This document shows positions 8,744 to 18,403 of a DNA stretch of 64,000 nt, in pieces (positions within the stretch are counted from its first letter, which is position 1; every line of letters begins with the position of its first letter). Under the pieces are notes generated by a model that ran no database searches, was not told where the DNA came from, and saw nothing but the letters and a program-made list of their open reading frames with translations. The position numbers were made by a program, and so were the translations under genes. The stretch covers positions 124,001 to 188,000 of the forward strand of contig CASFBK010000001.1 of NCBI GenBank assembly GCA_949292785.1, read 5' to 3'. Origin of the DNA: an uncultured Eubacteriales bacterium. GTDB lineage: Bacteria > Bacillota > Clostridia > Lachnospirales > Lachnospiraceae.

Positions 8744-9586
8744 ATGGAAAGTGAAAGCAGAATCTTAGAGGAATTGAGGGAGACCATGCCGTTGTTTCGT
8801 CAGCTTGCAACAACGGATGCATATTTTGCATTATTTAGCAGAACAGAGGTGCTTGGCGTATGGCGGGCTGAGGAATTTCAGGTAGACTTTGTGCAGGAAG
8901 GGGAAGTGTTGAGCACTGCCAACCCAAAGCATGAATTGATTCTGGATACGATGGAAAAGGGAAGTGCCACAGAGGCAGAAGCGCCAGAAGAACTCTTTGG
9001 AATTCCGGTGCGTGGAAATCTGGTACCGGTTTATGAAGACGGTCAGGTAGTGGGACTGCTTGCGAGCATGATTAGCATGAAAGAGAATGTCAGAGTTGGG
9101 TCCTTGACAGAATCCTTAGACAATAATTTAGTAGACTCCTTACAGAGCATTGAAGAGATTGCAAAAGGAGCAAGTGATTTGTCCGACAAGCTCAATAATA
9201 TCCATGATACATCTGAAATGGTAAGAGACCAGGCAGACAAAGCCTCCAAGCTGGTAAGTGCAATTCAGGGAAATGCATCCCGCTCCAATATTCTGGCGCT
9301 GAATGCATCCATTGAAGCAGCAAGAGCAGGAGAAGCAGGAAGAGGATTTGCGGTCGTTGCAAATGAAATGGGAAAACTGGCGCAGGTCAGCGGAAGCTCT
9401 GCAAAGGAAATTGATACCTCGCTTAGCGATATTTTTGAAGCAATCAAAAGAGTGACGGATGAAGTAGACCAGGCAACAGAGGTTGCAACGGCACAGGCAT
9501 CAGAAACAGACAAAATTATTGCTACCCTTGAAGATATCGTATCCTGGGCAAGCGAATTGACAGAGTTCGTAAGAAAAACAAATTAA
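8744..9586 (+). CDS. Soluble methyl-accepting chemotaxis-like signalling protein
   Basis: 280 residues with no transmembrane helix or signal peptide, so cytosolic. Residues 1-115 form an uncharacterised sensory region (motifs [11 protein letters not shown] and [12 protein letters not shown]). Residues about 125-280 are a shortened chemoreceptor signalling hairpin with the conserved tip [21 protein letters not shown] split around residue 190. The domain is much shorter than that of a classical receptor, and few methylation-type Glu/Gln pairs are evident. It has its own AAGGAGG site and a terminator, so it is a separate unit after scpB. The same signalling module occurs fused to a hydrogenase-like domain at 16361. 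Confidence 0.85.
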
Positions 9587-11048: not shown

Positions 11049-12482
11049 ATGAGTAATACTACAAACTCAGCAAGACAGAGGATTACCGGTCTTCTTGACG
11101 AGAAAAGTTTTATGGAAATCGGCGCTCTGGTAACTGCAAGAAACACAGATTTTGATTTAAGTCAATCTGAAACTCCTTCGGATGGAGTCATTACCGGTTA
11201 TGGTCTGATTGATGGAAATCTGGTTTATGTGTACAGCCAGGATGCATCGGTATTAAAAGGAACCATCGGAGAGATGCATAGTAAGAAAATTGCCGCGGTA
11301 TATGATATGGCAGTGAAGATGGGAGCACCGGTTATCGGATTAATTGATTGTGCCGGCATGCGTCTGCAGGAATCGGTGGATGCTTTAAATGGTTTTGGTG
11401 AAATCTATGCAAAACAGGTAATGGCAAGTGGTGTAGTACCACAGATTTCAGCTGTATTTGGCAGCTGTGGCGGAGGTCTTACCGTTATTCCTGCATTAAG
11501 CGATTTTGTATTTATAGAGAAAGAACAGGGAAGAATGTTTGTAAACTCACCCAATGCACTTCCTGGAAATAATATATCAAAATGTGATACTGCGGATGCT
11601 GCATATCAGAGCGAAAATAATGGCTGCATTGACGGCGTAGGAACAGAAGCAGAGATTTTGACGCAGATTCGTGAATTAATCTGTATGCTTCCCGGAAATA
11701 ATGCAGGAGGCGGCAGGGAAGAAGAATGTACCGACGATTTGAACCGTATCTGTGAGAATCTTGAGAACGGTGCAGAAGATGCACGTCTGGTCCTTACTCA
11801 TATTGCAGACGATAATTTGTTCCTGGAAACAAAAACAGATTATGCCAGAAATATGGTAACAGGGTTCCTTCGTTTAAATGGAATGACCATTGGAGCAGTT
11901 GCGAACAGCAGTGCCGTATTTGATGAGAATGGCGAAAAGACCGAAACCTTTGACAAAGGACTTACTGCAAGAGGATGTAACAAAGCAGCAGAATTCATTC
12001 AGTTCTGCGATGCCTTTGATATTCCTGTATTATCCCTTACCGCGGTCGAAGGATTTGCAGCCAGCACATGTTCAGAGAAAAATCTGGCAAAGGCAATGGC
12101 ACGTATGACCGCAGCATTTGCAACAGCTACCGTTCCAAAGGTGAATATTATCATCGGTAATGCATATGGAAGTGCATCTGTTATGATGAACAGCAAGTCT
12201 ATCGGCGCCGATTTGGTATATGCATGGGAAGGAAGCAAGGTTGGCATGATGGATGCAGCTATGGCGGCAAAAATCATGTATGAGGACAAGGGAGCTGAGG
12301 TAATCGACCAGAAAGCAAAAGAATACGAAGAATTACAGTCTTCTGTGCTTACAGCGGCAAGACGCGGGCTTGTGGATTTGATTATTTCTCCGGCTGATAC
12401 CAGAAAATATGCAGTAGCAGCATTCGAAATGCTTTATACAAAAGGTGTTGGAGAACCGACAAAAAAACATGCAGCAAAATAG
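11049..12482 (+). CDS. mmdA: Biotin-dependent acyl-CoA carboxyltransferase (MmdA / transcarboxylase 12S-like)
   Basis: Crotonase-fold carboxyltransferase, 477 residues, a little shorter than typical MmdA or PccB (about 510). Two tandem CT subdomains are visible: the first with LIDCAGMRLQESV and FGSCGGGLTVIPA (oxyanion glycines, about residues 97-145), the second with NSSAVFDENGEKT, FDIPVLSLTAVEGF and NAYGSASVMMNSKSIG (about 280-390). The family moves carboxyl groups between acyl-CoA (methylmalonyl-, glutaconyl- or malonyl-CoA) and biotin. It is the first gene of an operon with an OadG-like anchor, biotin carrier, OadB pump and OadA, so methylmalonyl-CoA or a related substrate is likely, though the acyl group cannot be told from sequence. 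GGAGG precedes ATG 11049. Confidence 0.88.
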   Translation: MSNTTNSARQRITGLLDEKSFMEIGALVTARNTDFDLSQSETPSDGVITGYGLIDGNLVYVYSQDASVLKGTIGEMHSKKIAAVYDMAVKMGAPVIGLIDCAGMRLQESVDALNGFGEIYAKQVMASGVVPQISAVFGSCGGGLTVIPALSDFVFIEKEQGRMFVNSPNALPGNNISKCDTADAAYQSENNGCIDGVGTEAEILTQIRELICMLPGNNAGGGREEECTDDLNRICENLENGAEDARLVLTHIADDNLFLETKTDYARNMVTGFLRLNGMTIGAVANSSAVFDENGEKTETFDKGLTARGCNKAAEFIQFCDAFDIPVLSLTAVEGFAASTCSEKNLAKAMARMTAAFATATVPKVNIIIGNAYGSASVMMNSKSIGADLVYAWEGSKVGMMDAAMAAKIMYEDKGAEVIDQKAKEYEELQSSVLTAARRGLVDLIISPADTRKYAVAAFEMLYTKGVGEPTKKHAAK

Positions 12483-12495
12483 AAAGGTGAAGCTT

Positions 12496-13215
12496 ATGAA
12501 AAAGAAAATATCGCTGATACTGGGTATGTGTCTTGTGATGCTTAGTCTGACCGCATGTGGAGAGGATCCGAAAAAGGTTGACTATAACGGTTATAGCTAC
12601 AACCAACTGCAGGAAGAACTTCAGAATACGGCAGAAGCGCTTGTTGCGATGTCAGACGAGGAAGCAGAGCAGTACAAGATGATGGAAGGCGAGCAGTATA
12701 AAACGCTGATTAATATGGTAACGCGCTGGCAGGAGGCAACCGATGAAGTAGGAGAATATAAGGAACTGGGCGAATTTTCCATTACCAAGTCGGGAAAAAC
12801 ACTTACCTGTGAACAGGAGGTCGTTTTTGAAGAAAGACCTGTAGTTCTTACCTATGTGTTTACCTACTATAATATGGAGCTTGATGATATTACGGTAGAT
12901 CCGGTACAGACCCTTGGGGAGAAGATGGCAAATGCAGGCTTGAATACCCTGATGGGAATGGGTGTAGTATTTATCGTTCTTATTCTGATTAGTCTGATTA
13001 TCTATTGCTTTAAGGTATTTCCGTATCTGGAGCAAAAAAGACAGGCAAAGAATACAGCAGTTCCGGTAGTAGAAAATGACAAAGAACAAGAAAATGTACC
13101 TGTGGCAGCACAGGATGATTTGGAATTAGTGGCAGTAATTGCAGCGGCAATAGCGGCGTCCACAGGAACCTCTACAGATGACTTTGTAGTACGTTCCATC
13201 AAAAGAAGATATTAG
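12496..13215 (+). CDS. OadG-type decarboxylase gamma subunit with lipoprotein N-terminus
   Basis: 239 residues. The start ATG 12496 follows GAAAGGTGA and opens with a lipoprotein signal (MKKKISLILGMCLVMLSLTAC) whose lipobox Cys is residue 21. An extracytoplasmic segment of about 115 residues follows, then a transmembrane helix (GVVFIVLILISLIIYC, about 155-172) with the FKVFP...EQKR pattern of OadG/DUF-type gamma chains, and a cytosolic tail ending in DDLELVAVIAAAIAAS and KRRY. OadG normally is about 80 residues and anchors the complex; the added lipoprotein domain is a clostridial variant. It probably holds the carboxyltransferases and biotin carrier to OadB. Confidence 0.8.
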   Translation: MKKKISLILGMCLVMLSLTACGEDPKKVDYNGYSYNQLQEELQNTAEALVAMSDEEAEQYKMMEGEQYKTLINMVTRWQEATDEVGEYKELGEFSITKSGKTLTCEQEVVFEERPVVLTYVFTYYNMELDDITVDPVQTLGEKMANAGLNTLMGMGVVFIVLILISLIIYCFKVFPYLEQKRQAKNTAVPVVENDKEQENVPVAAQDDLELVAVIAAAIAASTGTSTDDFVVRSIKRRY

Positions 13216-13233
13216 ATGCAGGAGGAAATCAAA

Positions 13234-13605
13234 ATGAAGAATTATACAATTACCGTTAATGGAAACGTTTACGATGTTACAGTAGAGGAAACAGGAGCAG
13301 GTACTGCACCGGTTGCACCAAGAAGAGCAGCAGCGCCTGTGGCAGCACCTGCAGCACCGGCAGCACCAAAGGCAGCAGGCGGCGCAGGAAGTATTAAAAT
13401 TGAAGCCGGAGCGGCAGGGAAAGTATTTAGCGTAGACAGCAAGCCTGGTGATGCGGTAAAACGTGGTGATACCATACTGGTATTAGAGGTTATGAAAATG
13501 GAGACACCAGTTGTTGCACCGGAAGATGGAACCGTAGCAAGCATTGATGTTACCGTAGGACAGGCTGTAGAAGCGGGTGCGTTACTGGCGACTATGAATA
13601 AATAA
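13234..13605 (+). CDS. Biotin carboxyl carrier protein of the decarboxylase
   Basis: 123 residues. An N-terminal KNYTITVNGNVYDVTVEE strand pair, an Ala/Pro-rich flexible linker (about residues 30-53) and a biotinyl domain with EVMKMETPV, in which the Lys of MKM is biotinylated. It is the 1.3S/MmdC-type swinging arm that carries CO2 from a carboxyltransferase to OadB. An in-frame ATG at 13216 overlaps the previous stop, but the AGGAGG at 13220-13225 lies after it, so ATG 13234 is the start. The single carrier must serve both carboxyltransferases of the operon. Confidence 0.95.
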   Translation: MKNYTITVNGNVYDVTVEETGAGTAPVAPRRAAAPVAAPAAPAAPKAAGGAGSIKIEAGAAGKVFSVDSKPGDAVKRGDTILVLEVMKMETPVVAPEDGTVASIDVTVGQAVEAGALLATMNK

Positions 13606-13620
13606 GCAGGAGGACAAAAT

Positions 13621-14769
13621 ATGAGTTACGTAGGAGAAACTTTATCAAACCTCCTGCATCAGACCGCATTCTTTAACCTGACCTGGGGCAACTATGTCAT
13701 GATTTTAGTGGCATTCATATTTCTTTTCCTTGCGATAAAGAAAGGCTTTGAACCCCTGTTATTGGTTCCGATTGCGTTTGGTATGTTATTGGTCAATATT
13801 TATCCGGATATTATTGCGTCACCGGAAGAGACCAGCAATGGCGTAGGTGGGTTACTTTATTATTTTTATTCACTGGATGAATGGTCGATTCTTCCTTCAT
13901 TGATTTTCCTTGGTGTAGGAGCGATGACAGACTTTGGTCCTTTGATTGCAAATCCAATCAGCTTTCTGCTGGGAGCAGCAGCGCAGTTTGGTATTTTTGG
14001 AGCATATTTCCTGGCAATTTTATTAGGCTTTAATGATAAAGCAGCAGCGGCAGTATCCATTATCGGTGGAGCGGATGGTCCTACTTCTATTTTCCTGGCT
14101 GGAAAATTAGGACAGACCGGACTCATGGGACCGATTGCGGTAGCGGCATATTCCTATATGGCACTGGTGCCGATTATACAGCCGCCGATTATGAAGCTGT
14201 TTACGACCAAGGAAGAACGTGCTATTAAGATGGAGAATTTAAGACCGGTTTCCAAACTGGAAAAAATCTTATTCCCTATCGTAGTAACATCAATCGTTTG
14301 TTTACTTCTTCCTACCACAGCGCCATTGGTTGGTATGTTGATGTTAGGAAACCTGTTCCGTGAATGTGGTGTTGTTCGTCAGTTATCCGAAACAGCATCC
14401 AACGCATTGATGTACATTGTTGTTATCTTACTGGGAACATCTGTAGGTGCAACCACCAGTGCAGAAGCATTCCTGAACATTACAACATTAAAAATCGTAG
14501 GTCTTGGATTAGCGGCATTTATGTTTGGTACCGCAGCAGGTGTGTTGTTCGGTAAGCTGTTATGCAAGCTTACCCACGGAAAGATTAATCCGTTGATTGG
14601 TTCTGCCGGAGTATCTGCAGTACCTATGGCGGCCCGGGTATCACAGAAGGTGGGTGCCGAGGAAGACCCGACGAACTTTTTACTTATGCATGCAATGGGA
14701 CCAAACGTTGCCGGAGTTATCGGTACAGCAGTAGCTGCCGGTGTATTTATGGCAATCTTTGGGATATAA
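13621..14769 (+). CDS. oadB: Na+-translocating decarboxylase beta subunit
   Basis: Polytopic membrane protein of 382 residues with about nine to eleven helices. It decarboxylates carboxybiotin and exports Na+. The conserved [10 protein letters not shown] segment carries Asp152, the residue equivalent to the essential Asp203 of Klebsiella OadB, and the C-terminal half holds the second signature region ([15 protein letters not shown]). AGGAGG lies nine bases before ATG 13621. It sits between the biotin carrier and OadA, with 12-16-base gaps, in one operon. Confidence 0.95.
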
Positions 14770-14781
14770 GGAGGATAAATC

Positions 14782-16200
14782 ATGGCTGAACAGATTAAAA
14801 AACCGGTGAAAATTACCGAGACCGTATTACGTGATGCACATCAGTCTCTGATTGCGACCCGTATGACAACAGAGCAGATGCTGCCTATCGTAGATAAAAT
14901 GGATAAGGTTGGTTTCCATGCAGTGGAATGCTGGGGTGGAGCGACCTTTGATGCATCCCTTCGATTCTTAAAAGAAGATCCGTGGGATAGATTGAGAAAA
15001 TTGCGAGATGGATTTAAAAATACAAAGCTGCAGATGTTATTCCGTGGACAGAATATCTTAGGATATCGTCCGTATGCAGATGATGTAGTAGAATATTTTG
15101 TACAGAAGTCCATAGCCAATGGAATTGATATTATTCGTATTTTTGACTGTCTGAATGATATTCGTAATCTGCAGACAGCAGTAAGTGCATGTAACAAAGA
15201 AAAAGGGCATGCTCAGGTTGCATTATCCTATACATTAGGAGATGCGTATACTTTGGATTACTGGATGGAAATGGCGAAAAAGGTAGAAGATATGGGAGCG
15301 GATTCCCTTTGTATCAAGGATATGGCAGGCTTATTAGTGCCGCAGAAGGCAGATGAACTGATTCGTGCACTGAAAGGTGCGACCGGTCTTCCGATAGAGC
15401 TTCATACCCATTATACCAGTGGTGTTGCTTCTATGACCTATATGAAGGCAATCGAGGCAGGCTGTGATATTATTGATACCGCAATGTCACCATTTGCATT
15501 AGGAACCAGTCAGCCGGCAACCGAAGTTATGGTAGAAGCCTTTAGAGGAACGGAATATGATACCGGCTTAGACCAGACTAAATTAGCTGAAATCGCAGAT
15601 TACTTCCGTCCGATGCGAGAGGAGTGTTTAGAAAACGGCTTAATGAATCCGAAGGTATTAGGTGTTAATATCAAGACCTTGTTATATCAGGTACCGGGAG
15701 GTATGTTATCCAATCTGCTTTCACAGTTGAAGGAGCAGGGCAAGGAAGATAAGTTTGACGAGGTATTAGCAGAGGTACCGCGTGTACGAAAAGACCTTGG
15801 TGAGCCGCCTCTTGTAACTCCATCCAGCCAGATTGTGGGTACACAGGCTGTATTTAACGTGCTGATGGGAGAACGCTATAAAGTGGCAACCAAAGAGACC
15901 AAGGATATTCTCCTTGGAAAGTACGGTCAGACAGTAAAACCATTCAATCCGGAAGTAGTAGATAAGGTATTAGGTGACGAGAAGAAGAATGCGATTACCT
16001 GTCGTCCGGCAGATTTGTTAGAACCGGAGCTTTCCAAGATTGAAGAAGAAATGAAACAGTGGAAACAGCAGGACGAGGATGTATTGTCTTATGCATTATT
16101 CCCACAGGTTGCAACAGAATTCTTTAAATACAGAGAAGCACAGCAGACAAAGGTGGATGCGACCATCGCAGATAAAGAAAACGGAGCATATCCTGTTTAG
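14782..16200 (+). CDS. oadA: Oxaloacetate decarboxylase alpha / transcarboxylase 5S-like carboxyltransferase
   Basis: 472 residues. HMGL-like TIM barrel with TVLRDAHQSLIATRM (metal and carboxyl binding, about residues 13-28), FDCLNDIRN, CIKDMAG (carbamylated Lys) and HTHYTSG (metal His pair), then the conserved post-catalytic domain ending in TPSSQIVGTQAVFNV. It transfers CO2 between oxaloacetate (or pyruvate) and biotin. There is no C-terminal biotinyl domain, consistent with the separate carrier at 13234. It is the last gene of the operon, followed by a terminator. PycB-like or 5S-like enzymes share this architecture, so the natural direction is open. Confidence 0.92.
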   Translation: MAEQIKKPVKITETVLRDAHQSLIATRMTTEQMLPIVDKMDKVGFHAVECWGGATFDASLRFLKEDPWDRLRKLRDGFKNTKLQMLFRGQNILGYRPYADDVVEYFVQKSIANGIDIIRIFDCLNDIRNLQTAVSACNKEKGHAQVALSYTLGDAYTLDYWMEMAKKVEDMGADSLCIKDMAGLLVPQKADELIRALKGATGLPIELHTHYTSGVASMTYMKAIEAGCDIIDTAMSPFALGTSQPATEVMVEAFRGTEYDTGLDQTKLAEIADYFRPMREECLENGLMNPKVLGVNIKTLLYQVPGGMLSNLLSQLKEQGKEDKFDEVLAEVPRVRKDLGEPPLVTPSSQIVGTQAVFNVLMGERYKVATKETKDILLGKYGQTVKPFNPEVVDKVLGDEKKNAITCRPADLLEPELSKIEEEMKQWKQQDEDVLSYALFPQVATEFFKYREAQQTKVDATIADKENGAYPV

Positions 16201-16234
16201 GAAAATGGGGGATAGATATCTGTATTTTAATACT

Positions 16235-16270
16235 AAAAAGTAGAAGACAGAAATGTTCTTCTACTTTTTT
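16235..16270 (+). terminator. Terminator of the decarboxylase operon
   Basis: AAAAAGTAGAAG (16235-16246) pairs with CTTCTACTTTTTT (16258-16270), with the T tract inside the 3' arm. Confidence 0.88.
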
Positions 16271-16290
16271 ATATTTTTACCAGAAAATCA

Positions 16291-16319: not shown

Positions 16320-16360
16320 AAACAAAAGCATGGATGCTAGAGCAGTTGGAGGAAAAGAGT

Positions 16361-18289
16361 ATGGAAAAGAATATGTTGAATCAAGGTCTTGTGTATACGA
16401 ATGATGATTGTATCGGATGTAACAGATGTATTTCCGTCTGTCCGGTATTAGGGGCAAATTATTCTTTGCGAGACGGCGACAAGAATGTGATTCATGTAGA
16501 TGGAGATGCTTGTGTACAGTGTGGTGCATGCATGGATGCGTGTCATCATGATTCGAGAGCATTTAGGGATGATACAGACAGCTTCTTAGAAGCATTGCAA
16601 AAAGGAGAAAAAATCAGTATTTTGATTGCACCTGCCTTTATTGCAAATTATCCGAACGAATACCGTAAGGTACTGGGATATTTAAAAAGCATTGGGGTAA
16701 ATCGAATGATAAGTGTAAGTTTTGGTGCAGATATTACCACATGGGGTTACTTGAATTATATTACCAAATATAATTTCAAAGGTGGAATATCACAGCCATG
16801 TCCGGCGATTGTGAATTATATTGAAAAGTACATACCGGAGCTTACAGAGAAACTGGTTCCGGTGCACAGTCCGATGATGTGCGCGGCAATTTATGTAAAA
16901 AAATATATGAATGTTAGTGATAAACTGGCATTTATCAGTCCGTGTATTGCGAAAAAGTCAGAAATTACACGTCCCGGAAATAAAGAGTATATTTCATATA
17001 ATGTGACCTTTCATCATTTGATGGAACGATTAAAGGGAATTAATCTGTCCGGCTATGACGCAGGAGATGAACTGGAATACGGAATGGGAAGCCTGTATCC
17101 GCAGCCTGGTGGACTTAAGGAAAATGTAGAGCATTTCCTTGGAAAAGATGTTATGGTACGCCAGATTGAAGGAGAAAGCCATGCATATCATTTTCTGGAG
17201 GAGTATGCAAGACGCGTTAAGGCAGGAAAGCCGCTTCCATTTTTAGTTGACGCACTGAATTGTGCAAGCGGTTGTATTCATGGAACAGCAACAGAGCCGG
17301 CGATGGATGAAAATGACGATGTTCTTTTTGAAATCCACAATCAGCGAATCAAAGCAAAGAACGATGATAAGAAGAATCCATGGGCAAAGGAAATCAGTTA
17401 CGAAAAACGTCTGGAAAATTTCAATGCCCAGTTTTCGGAATTAAAGCTGGAAGATTTCTTATGTAAATATTATCCGGGTGAAAAGAAAGAATCGGTGACC
17501 AATGAACAGCTTCAGGATGGATTTTCTGAACTCGGAAAAGATACGTTGGAAAAACAGAACATTGATTGCGGAGCCTGCGGATATGATAGCTGTAAAAAAA
17601 TGGCAGAAGCGGTTGCACTTGGATATAATCACAAAGAAAATTGTATTCATTATGTAAAGAATGAATTGTTAGAAGAACAAAGAACAATCAAAAATATGAC
17701 AGATGAGTTAAGACAGAAGCATCAGAAGAAGGAAGAGCTTTATGCAGAAATCATGAAGGATTTCCAGCAGATTAAGGATTCCATTGCAGAACTGGCAATC
17801 GGTAATCAGAATTCGGCAGAAGATGCTACACAGATGGCACAGGCGGTGGGGGATATCTCTGGTTTCACGGATTCCCTGAGAGATTCCATGGGTCAGGTAA
17901 CAGAGGCTGTGAAAGGATATGATACCATTAATGATGCCATCATAAAAATATCCAATCAGACGGGTATGCTTGCTCTGAATGCAGGAATTGAAGCTGCACG
18001 AAGTGGAGATGCCGGAAGAGGATTTGCAGTAATTGCAAATAGAGTAAGAGAATTATCCGAGCAGACCAAGGGTGCTGTAGTTACCGGTAAGAAGCAAAGT
18101 GATGTATTGCTGCCGGCAATGGAAGAGCTTGGCTCAGAAACGGAAAATTTTATAAAGAATATTGAAGATATCAATACCAGAACATCAGCGCTTGCGGCAA
18201 GCAGTGAGGAAATAGCTGCACAGACGGAAATGATAGAAGAAGTTGTAAATCGTGTGGCAGTAAAAATGAAAGATGTGGTAGAAGATTAA
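16361..18289 (+). CDS. [FeFe]-hydrogenase-like sensor fused to a chemoreceptor signalling domain
   Basis: 642 residues, no transmembrane helix. Order: two [4Fe-4S] ferredoxin motifs (C17/20/23/27 and C51/54/57/61); an [FeFe]-hydrogenase H-domain with SQPCP (C147), SPCIAKK (C195) and NCASGC (C301, C305), i.e. all four H-cluster Cys ligands; a further Fe-S motif CGACGYDSC with C403/406/411/428; a coiled segment; and a chemoreceptor tip (LALNAGIEAARSG, about 530-570). The Cys that relays protons in catalytic enzymes (first Cys of TSCCP) is replaced by Pro146. The architecture fits sensory group C hydrogenases that signal rather than turn over H2. GGAGG precedes ATG 16361; an upstream ATG lacks a site. 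It is monocistronic with its own promoter. Confidence 0.88.
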   Translation: MEKNMLNQGLVYTNDDCIGCNRCISVCPVLGANYSLRDGDKNVIHVDGDACVQCGACMDACHHDSRAFRDDTDSFLEALQKGEKISILIAPAFIANYPNEYRKVLGYLKSIGVNRMISVSFGADITTWGYLNYITKYNFKGGISQPCPAIVNYIEKYIPELTEKLVPVHSPMMCAAIYVKKYMNVSDKLAFISPCIAKKSEITRPGNKEYISYNVTFHHLMERLKGINLSGYDAGDELEYGMGSLYPQPGGLKENVEHFLGKDVMVRQIEGESHAYHFLEEYARRVKAGKPLPFLVDALNCASGCIHGTATEPAMDENDDVLFEIHNQRIKAKNDDKKNPWAKEISYEKRLENFNAQFSELKLEDFLCKYYPGEKKESVTNEQLQDGFSELGKDTLEKQNIDCGACGYDSCKKMAEAVALGYNHKENCIHYVKNELLEEQRTIKNMTDELRQKHQKKEELYAEIMKDFQQIKDSIAELAIGNQNSAEDATQMAQAVGDISGFTDSLRDSMGQVTEAVKGYDTINDAIIKISNQTGMLALNAGIEAARSGDAGRGFAVIANRVRELSEQTKGAVVTGKKQSDVLLPAMEELGSETENFIKNIEDINTRTSALAASSEEIAAQTEMIEEVVNRVAVKMKDVVED

Positions 18290-18296
18290 AAAACTA

Positions 18297-18325
18297 TTGT
18301 GATAAAACCGGCTTTTTGTTATAAT
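18297..18325 (+). promoter_or_regulatory. Sigma-A promoter of the RpiR-family regulator gene
   Basis: TTGTGA (18297-18302), 17-base spacer, TATAAT (18320-18325). Transcription would start near 18332, a few bases before the hairpin at 18337. Confidence 0.72.
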
Positions 18326-18336
18326 AAAAAAAGCGA

Positions 18337-18374
18337 CGGCGCTCAATGGCAATGTGCCAGGGGCGCCGATTTTT
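18337..18374 (+). terminator. Terminator-like hairpin in the leader of the RpiR-family gene
   Basis: CGGCGC (18337-18342) pairs with GCGCCG (18363-18368), with an inner TGGCA/TGCCA stem, followed by ATTTTTAT. It may end transcription from the gene before, but it also lies just downstream of the 18297 promoter and so may act as an attenuator. Confidence 0.65.
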
Positions 18375-18403
18375 ATGATTGATGCAACTTTGTGTCAAAT
18401 CAT
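18375..18403 (+). promoter_or_regulatory. Inverted repeat before the RpiR-family start codon
   Basis: ATGATT (18375-18380) and AATCAT (18398-18403) flank GATGCA...TGTGTC, which also pair with wobbles. As DNA it is a 29-base imperfect palindrome with TTGA/TCAA half sites, a possible autoregulatory operator; as RNA it is a hairpin five bases before the ribosome site. Confidence 0.4.

Follow-up and report, generated by a model that had tools for sequence, protein, structure and literature searches.

Gene, domains and genomic setting

The window, that is, the whole 64,000-nucleotide stretch of DNA analyzed here, lies in a genome (G000) of 3.65 Mb and 99.7% completeness and carries on its forward strand, like all window features located below, a gene for a hydrogenase-like chemoreceptor of 642 aa (16361..18289). 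The open frame in the ORF listing extends from 16334 to 18289; ATG 16361 was preferred over 16334 because GGAGG is found at 16348-16352, eight bases before it, and residue numbers throughout refer to the 642-aa chain from ATG 16361. The chain starts with a two-cluster ferredoxin domain matched by Pfam Fer4 models (residues 10-75; 16388..16585; invariant C17/20/23/27 and C51/54/57/61), followed by an H-domain delimited by PF02906 and alignments (residues 84-312; 16610..17296), which contains C147, C195, C301, and C305 together with Pro146, Ser193, Lys198, Leu252, Asp297, and Leu299, and by a C-terminal Fe-S motif, Cx2Cx4Cx16C, matched by PF04060 (invariant C403/406/411/428; 17567..17644). The remainder of the chain is predicted to form a receptor hairpin, with a single long helix as the N-arm straight after C428 (residues 429-547; 17645..18001), a tip region with NAGIEAARSGDAGRGF recognized by the MCPsignal model and conserved tip residues (residues 534-565; 17960..18055), and a C-arm helix (residues 549-641; 18005..18283).

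All modules were recovered in the same chain by Pfam: Fe_hyd_lg_C at 7.9e-32, MCPsignal at 4e-20 (72.8 bits versus a cut-off of 34.6), FeS PF04060 at 2e-7, and several Fer4 models above cut-off. The best 25 of 96 NCBIfam rows were all under their own cut-offs (e.g., 144 versus 450 bits for group B1). Hydropathy analysis revealed no transmembrane stretch in the 642-aa receptor, and Pfam, alignments, and hydropathy together bear out the first-pass annotation, which had described two ferredoxin motifs, four H-cluster cysteines, a third Fe-S motif, and a receptor tip in one soluble chain. Neither PAS nor HAMP was found in the receptor among the best 25 of 28 Pfam families, so the Fe-S module appears to connect directly to the receptor arm. 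In the AlphaFold2 model (monomer, 64 sequences, pLDDT 84.4, pTM 0.70), the hairpin part of which has a pLDDT of mostly 69-84, an uninterrupted helix spans residues 429-547 and a second one residues 549-641, with a turn at 548 between them. Foldseek searches with this model retrieved [FeFe]-hydrogenases first, with a best E of 7.8e-16 and an E of 1.4e-11 for CpI (4xdc_B).

The receptor gene is probably transcribed alone, because hairpins with U runs flank it on both sides. Between the gene ending at 16200 and the receptor gene, a hairpin followed by a U run (16230..16276; -15.5 kcal/mol, z -6.0) is a likely terminator, which was absent from the pattern-based terminator scan of the window, and a GC-rich hairpin 3' of the receptor gene (18336..18370), identified by pattern scan and folding (z -3.5 for 18300-18380), is another. 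A sigma-28-like promoter pattern had 0 matches in the window. Upstream, the translations of positions 11049-16200 on the forward strand resemble a sodium-pumping, biotin-dependent decarboxylase cluster that comprises a carboxyltransferase, a biotin carrier, and the beta and alpha subunits.

Conserved gene partners were sought within 4.5 kb of the receptor gene in 80 named relatives retained from the matches listed and were rejected, the commonest neighbor cluster being present in just 21 of the 80; the downstream neighborhood of the window was common to one relative only (L123). None of the 573 neighbor frames was hydrogenase-like at 1e-10, and six contained a receptor tip, two of which (L123 and L152) look like the cut-off remainder of the relative's own receptor. 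In one genome lacking HydE, HydF, and HydG above cut-off (G099), a PF02906 gene immediately precedes the receptor gene (C8:227992-229164, partly within L039 and partly before it).

In the genome of the window as a whole, PF02906 matches 3 proteins, namely, the receptor, L001 (624 bits, above the group B1 cut-off), and L002 (B1-like, 324 bits, below cut-off), and there are 24 MCPsignal regions, CheW domains at four places, and one CheA. The chemotaxis-type output proposed in the first-pass annotation has its partners here, since CheA and CheW are both encoded in a flagellar cluster, the nine scanned ORFs of which correspond to FHIPEP, SRP54-type, YcgR, CheB, CheA, CheW, CheC, CheD, and sigma-70 family proteins. 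A genome search likewise recovered all three maturases, HydG (943 bits), HydF (591 bits), and HydE (605 bits). The receptor resembles soluble methyl-accepting chemotaxis proteins (MCPs) in its PF00015 match above cut-off, its tip motif, and the CheA and CheW of its genome, but differs from them in its input, a hydrogenase-like Fe-S core. Its C-arm comprises 99 residues, compared to 136-166 in 14 of the 15 other receptors examined from among the 24 MCPsignal regions (291 in the fifteenth). The window also encodes, at 8744-9586 on the forward strand, another soluble chemoreceptor (280 aa), whose C-arm has 90 residues and whose N-terminal part lacks Pfam matches at 1e-8. Short receptors might form a separate cytosolic array.

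Conservation, active site and placement of the H-domain

Among the matches listed for named genomes, a relative is encoded by 579 of the 595 stretches that fit the scan patterns, and at the level of sequence a chance origin of the arrangement is excluded. Of the 80 retained relatives, 59 carry Lachnospiraceae in their titles and one is Roseburia hominis; the receptor tip is present in the frames of 75 of the 80, and four of the remaining five frames are short. The 16 cysteines of the ferredoxin domain, H-domain, and C-terminal motif are invariant in an alignment of 14 relatives and likewise in 64 sequences. So is Pro146, which the first-pass annotation had correctly placed at the proton-relay position; its conservation in the pattern-scanned loci and in alignment A2 is partly due to selection, because one of the two scan patterns includes ISQPC, and in an alignment not selected by pattern, Pro occupies position 146 in 37 of 38 receptor-form rows. 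Lys198 is kept in all 38 of these rows, and the four H-cluster cysteines in all 48 rows of the C2-type assemblage described below. Tip residues are invariant or almost so in the 64 sequences. The methylation consensus was matched in 42 of 64 relatives versus 57 of 1,280 shuffles, with no exact match in the window protein.

One reading makes the H-domain a relict, a mere dimer scaffold with no role in sensing, and the receptor paralogue L068, whose H-domain has strongly diverged, speaks for it. Against this reading, no part of the protein is better conserved than the H-domain, with a mean identity of the window protein to its relatives of ~0.60 compared to ~0.53 for the tip and ~0.21 for the flanking helices, and many pocket residues are invariant in the 64 sequences, making a relict very improbable. 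The L068 paralogue itself (L068:4845-6821, forward strand) has Tyr at 146, Thr at 194 and 299, and Asp at 201, and keeps the four cysteines. Another receptor form (L051:454-2856, reverse strand) carries an extra C-terminal receiver domain at residues 681-797.

In alignments with A-like rows, Tyr130, Tyr133, Tyr137, Pro146, and Val166 of the window protein correspond to E279, E282, R286, C299, and S319 of CpI, respectively, and Ser193 and Leu299 to M353 and M497, the CpI numbering and its placement on the motifs following in part PMC8163306, PMC11803613, and PMC10407848. Leu252 falls at CpI V423, which is the position of TamHydS Glu252, and Asp297 at that of TamHydS Glu289. With the roles and positions of relay residues reported in these three papers, the sequence of the window protein departs at almost all positions from both published proton relays, that of group A and that of group D. 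The alterations point to slow or no turnover, although tyrosines are able to carry protons and the relay positions vary among the 38 receptor-form rows, 7 of which have His at 130 and 7 of which have Ser at 166. Pro at the relay position has been reported for some 10% of the sensory sequences in HydDB (PMC10055695).

Two characterized sensory enzymes were compared with the receptor via the residues reported in the respective papers rather than via full sequences. TmHydS of Thermotoga maritima (group C, M2f) shares with the receptor the two N-terminal clusters, the H-domain, the C-terminal Cx2Cx4Cx16C motif, and the loss of the relay Cys, but has a PAS domain where the receptor has its hairpin, and the positions of CpI M497 and M353 are reported as Ser and Gly in TmHydS (PMC8163306), compared to Leu and Ser in the receptor. 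TamHydS of Thermoanaerobacter mathranii (group D, M2e) has the same Leu and Ser, a C-terminal Fe-S module, and no relay Cys (PMC11803613), but lacks an output domain and is described as using Glu252 as a relay (PMC10407848), where the receptor has Leu252. According to PMC13104023, the C-terminal cluster of TamHydS is not reduced by H2, and secondary structure changes are reported; hence, signaling by a change of fold, rather than by redox of the C-terminal cluster, is possible.

To place the H-domain, we analyzed a midpoint-rooted tree built from 87 sequences by quick search, in which 48 C2-type rows fall on one side of a branch with SH-aLRT support of 100, and 22 A-like, 9 B-like, and 8 HydS-like rows fall on the other. 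The A and B labels are our own, derived from PF02906 score and frame length, with NCBIfam scans confined to L001 and L002; 4 of the 8 HydS-like rows were scanned and PAS was found in 2 of them. With labels so defined, the H-domain clade differs from the catalytic A-like and B-like clades. Membership in catalytic group A or B was rejected, with Pro146 in place of CpI C299, where Cys is present in 30 of 31 A/B-like rows and one row has a gap. Membership in group D (M2e) was rejected as well, with Leu252 instead of Glu (Leu in 38 of 38 receptor-form rows) and a signaling output domain present. For the PAS type of group C (M2f), PAS is missing from the 25 best of 28 Pfam families, and the HydS-like rows form another clade. 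In 8 of the 22 A-like rows (L090, L091, L093-L097, and L100), the motif reads TSCSPGW, with Ser at the CpI C300 ligand position.

These results also bear on whether the protein might be a catalytic hydrogenase whose receptor-like tail is structural. The Fe_hyd_lg_C match, the four cysteines, and the tyrosines at three relay positions, which could carry protons, speak for this reading, as do the low-activity enzymes TmHydS and TamHydS, which are reported to turn over H2 (PMC10055695 and PMC8163306). We nevertheless consider it highly unlikely, given the clade separate from A-like and B-like rows, the replaced relay residues of both CpI and group D, the conserved tip, and the CheA found in every receptor genome (see below).

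The protein combines four H-cluster cysteines, placement outside groups A and B, and MCPsignal in the H-domain chain, as well as the chemoreceptor features of PF00015 above the Pfam cut-off and CheA in the genome. It belongs by sequence to a known but uncharacterized kind, putative HydDB group C2, the label being applied by description only. This group is listed as "Chemotactic (putative)", with a sensory-type H-domain linked to methyl-accepting chemotaxis proteins (PMC5037454), a link also given in PMC9431212, where the C2 hits of that study were discarded after checks. HydDB gives the role of C2 as undetermined, stating that it "may sense H2" (PMC5037454). The novelty implied by the first-pass annotation is therefore reduced, as such proteins already have a place in HydDB; apart from the HydDB table (PMC5037454) and PMC9431212, the literature searched on the topic contained no C2 receptor study, and the linkage to CheA and the independence from maturases are absent from the C2 descriptions in these two sources. 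The same C2-type input module is also fused to a histidine kinase (L088), in some cases with a receiver (L059, L061, L062, and L073) or PAS (L064), and to GGDEF-EAL (L057, L071, and L074), which, from the sequences, marks the hydrogenase-like module as a general input module.

Distribution of the receptor, CheA and the maturases

To assess the distribution of the receptor, we used a set of 200 genomes of the family, which the titles of the named relatives suggest is Lachnospiraceae; they come from 199 genera and are phylogenetically not independent. The best match was at least 262 bits in 40 of the 200 genomes and at most 132 bits in every other genome, and the receptor form was present in 36. 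CheA was found in all 36 receptor genomes versus 62 of the 164 others (Fisher p 1e-13, the genomes being non-independent), which suggests that the tip of the receptor is being used; the two C2-type genomes that lack CheA (G042 and G069) carry histidine-kinase forms. Outside the family, 58 of the 299 genomes sampled from the phylum had a match at 1e-40 or better, and the tip motif was present in 13 of 23 newly fetched loci from this set. Signaling of a cytosolic Fe-S receptor to CheA is well supported by these sequence comparisons.

The maturases follow a different distribution. HydG is present in 18 of 36 receptor genomes versus 73 of 164 others (p 0.58) and, among CheA-bearing genomes, in 18 of 36 with the receptor versus 31 of 62 without it; HydE and HydF are each present in 21 of the 36 receptor genomes. 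All three are missing in 14 of the 36, and 4 have a partial set. In one 100% complete genome among those lacking maturases (G195), the receptor (L040) is the sole PF02906 protein. With no association to the maturases, the function kept by selection may need no diiron site. This distribution favors an account in which the H-domain holds only 4Fe-4S cubanes, or another cofactor, and never a diiron site, such that the receptor would respond to how reduced the cytosolic ferredoxin pool is, and H2 would be irrelevant. Also on its side are the replacement of residues in both published proton relays and the constancy of the four cysteines, the most constant feature of the C2-type rows, which are retained by forms with drifted pockets, namely, the EAL-linked L071 and L074 and the receptor L068, despite the loss of Pro146 and Leu299 (and, in L071 and L074, a change of Lys198).

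Other observations weigh against an H-domain devoid of a diiron site. Beyond the constancy of Lys198 in the receptor form, the pocket is about equally conserved with and without maturases: identity of the H-domain to that of the window protein is 0.595 in maturase-less and 0.597 in maturase-bearing genomes, and the four cysteines, Pro146, Lys198, Glu201, and Leu299 are invariant in both. The pocket comparison set 15 sequences from genomes without maturases against 18 from genomes with them (37 given, with 4 from partial-set genomes set aside; L047 and L068, which are split or diverged, and 9 of 10 non-receptor forms were left out, and L088 was included) and revealed no consistent difference, the largest one beside a ligand being Asn300, present in 13 of 15 versus 18 of 18. 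Missing maturases may also not mean a missing H-cluster: 184 of the 200 genomes have a strong non-C2 PF02906 match (below 1e-50), and only 91 have HydG above cut-off. In 11 A/B-like proteins from maturase-less genomes, the second and third ligand motifs are intact, eight reading TSCCP and three TSCSP, a form that occurs in maturase-bearing genomes too. Across the family, the sequences suggest that either the known maturases are not the sole route or many hydrogenases are unmatured, and since many maturase-less genomes keep other hydrogenases, maturase absence cannot decide the matter for the receptor alone. Finally, the genome of the window encodes all three maturases. Taken with the points in its favor, redox sensing without a diiron site is a serious contender that we rate as somewhat improbable.

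Candidate input, signaling route and implications

We consider the protein to be, with fair probability, a cytosolic receptor for energy taxis that belongs to the putative C2 class of HydDB. Of what the first-pass annotation had inferred, a sensory-type H-domain, a cytosolic receptor, and coupling to chemotaxis are supported; H2 as the signal is not established, as the family tracks CheA and not the maturases. H2 is a plausible signal, for which the genome comparison provides a specific ground for doubt. In the source organism, H2 or an H2-linked redox state is the most likely single input, because HydE, HydF, and HydG are encoded and the H-cluster can be made; that such an input acts through an H-cluster has, in our view, a slightly better than even chance of being correct.

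In sequence and model, a hydrogenase-derived input of two ferredoxin motifs and the H-domain is followed by the C-terminal 4Fe-4S-type module and then by one helix leading into the short hairpin with its conserved tip. The receptor would dimerize through this hairpin. The H-domain would change upon binding of H2 at a slow diiron site or upon reduction of its clusters by the ferredoxin pool or H2; this change would alter the C-terminal Fe-S module, which would shift the helix, and the shift would change CheA activity and swimming. As a more tentative proposal, C2 chemoreceptors could represent a hydrogenase fold exapted as cytosolic 4Fe-4S redox receptors with no need of a diiron site or HydEFG, the pocket serving as a cubane-based or differently loaded switch. 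Conversely, a diiron site in the maturase-less genomes would mean that these bacteria assemble the H-cluster by a route not yet described.

Sensory hydrogenases of group C have been detected in the gut, and their characterization is described as still needed (PMC12578642); H2 is among the central currencies of this habitat. A C2 receptor would link H2 or the ferredoxin redox state directly to swimming in motile gut Clostridia, and its occurrence without known maturases makes it testable whether "sensory hydrogenases" need an H-cluster at all.
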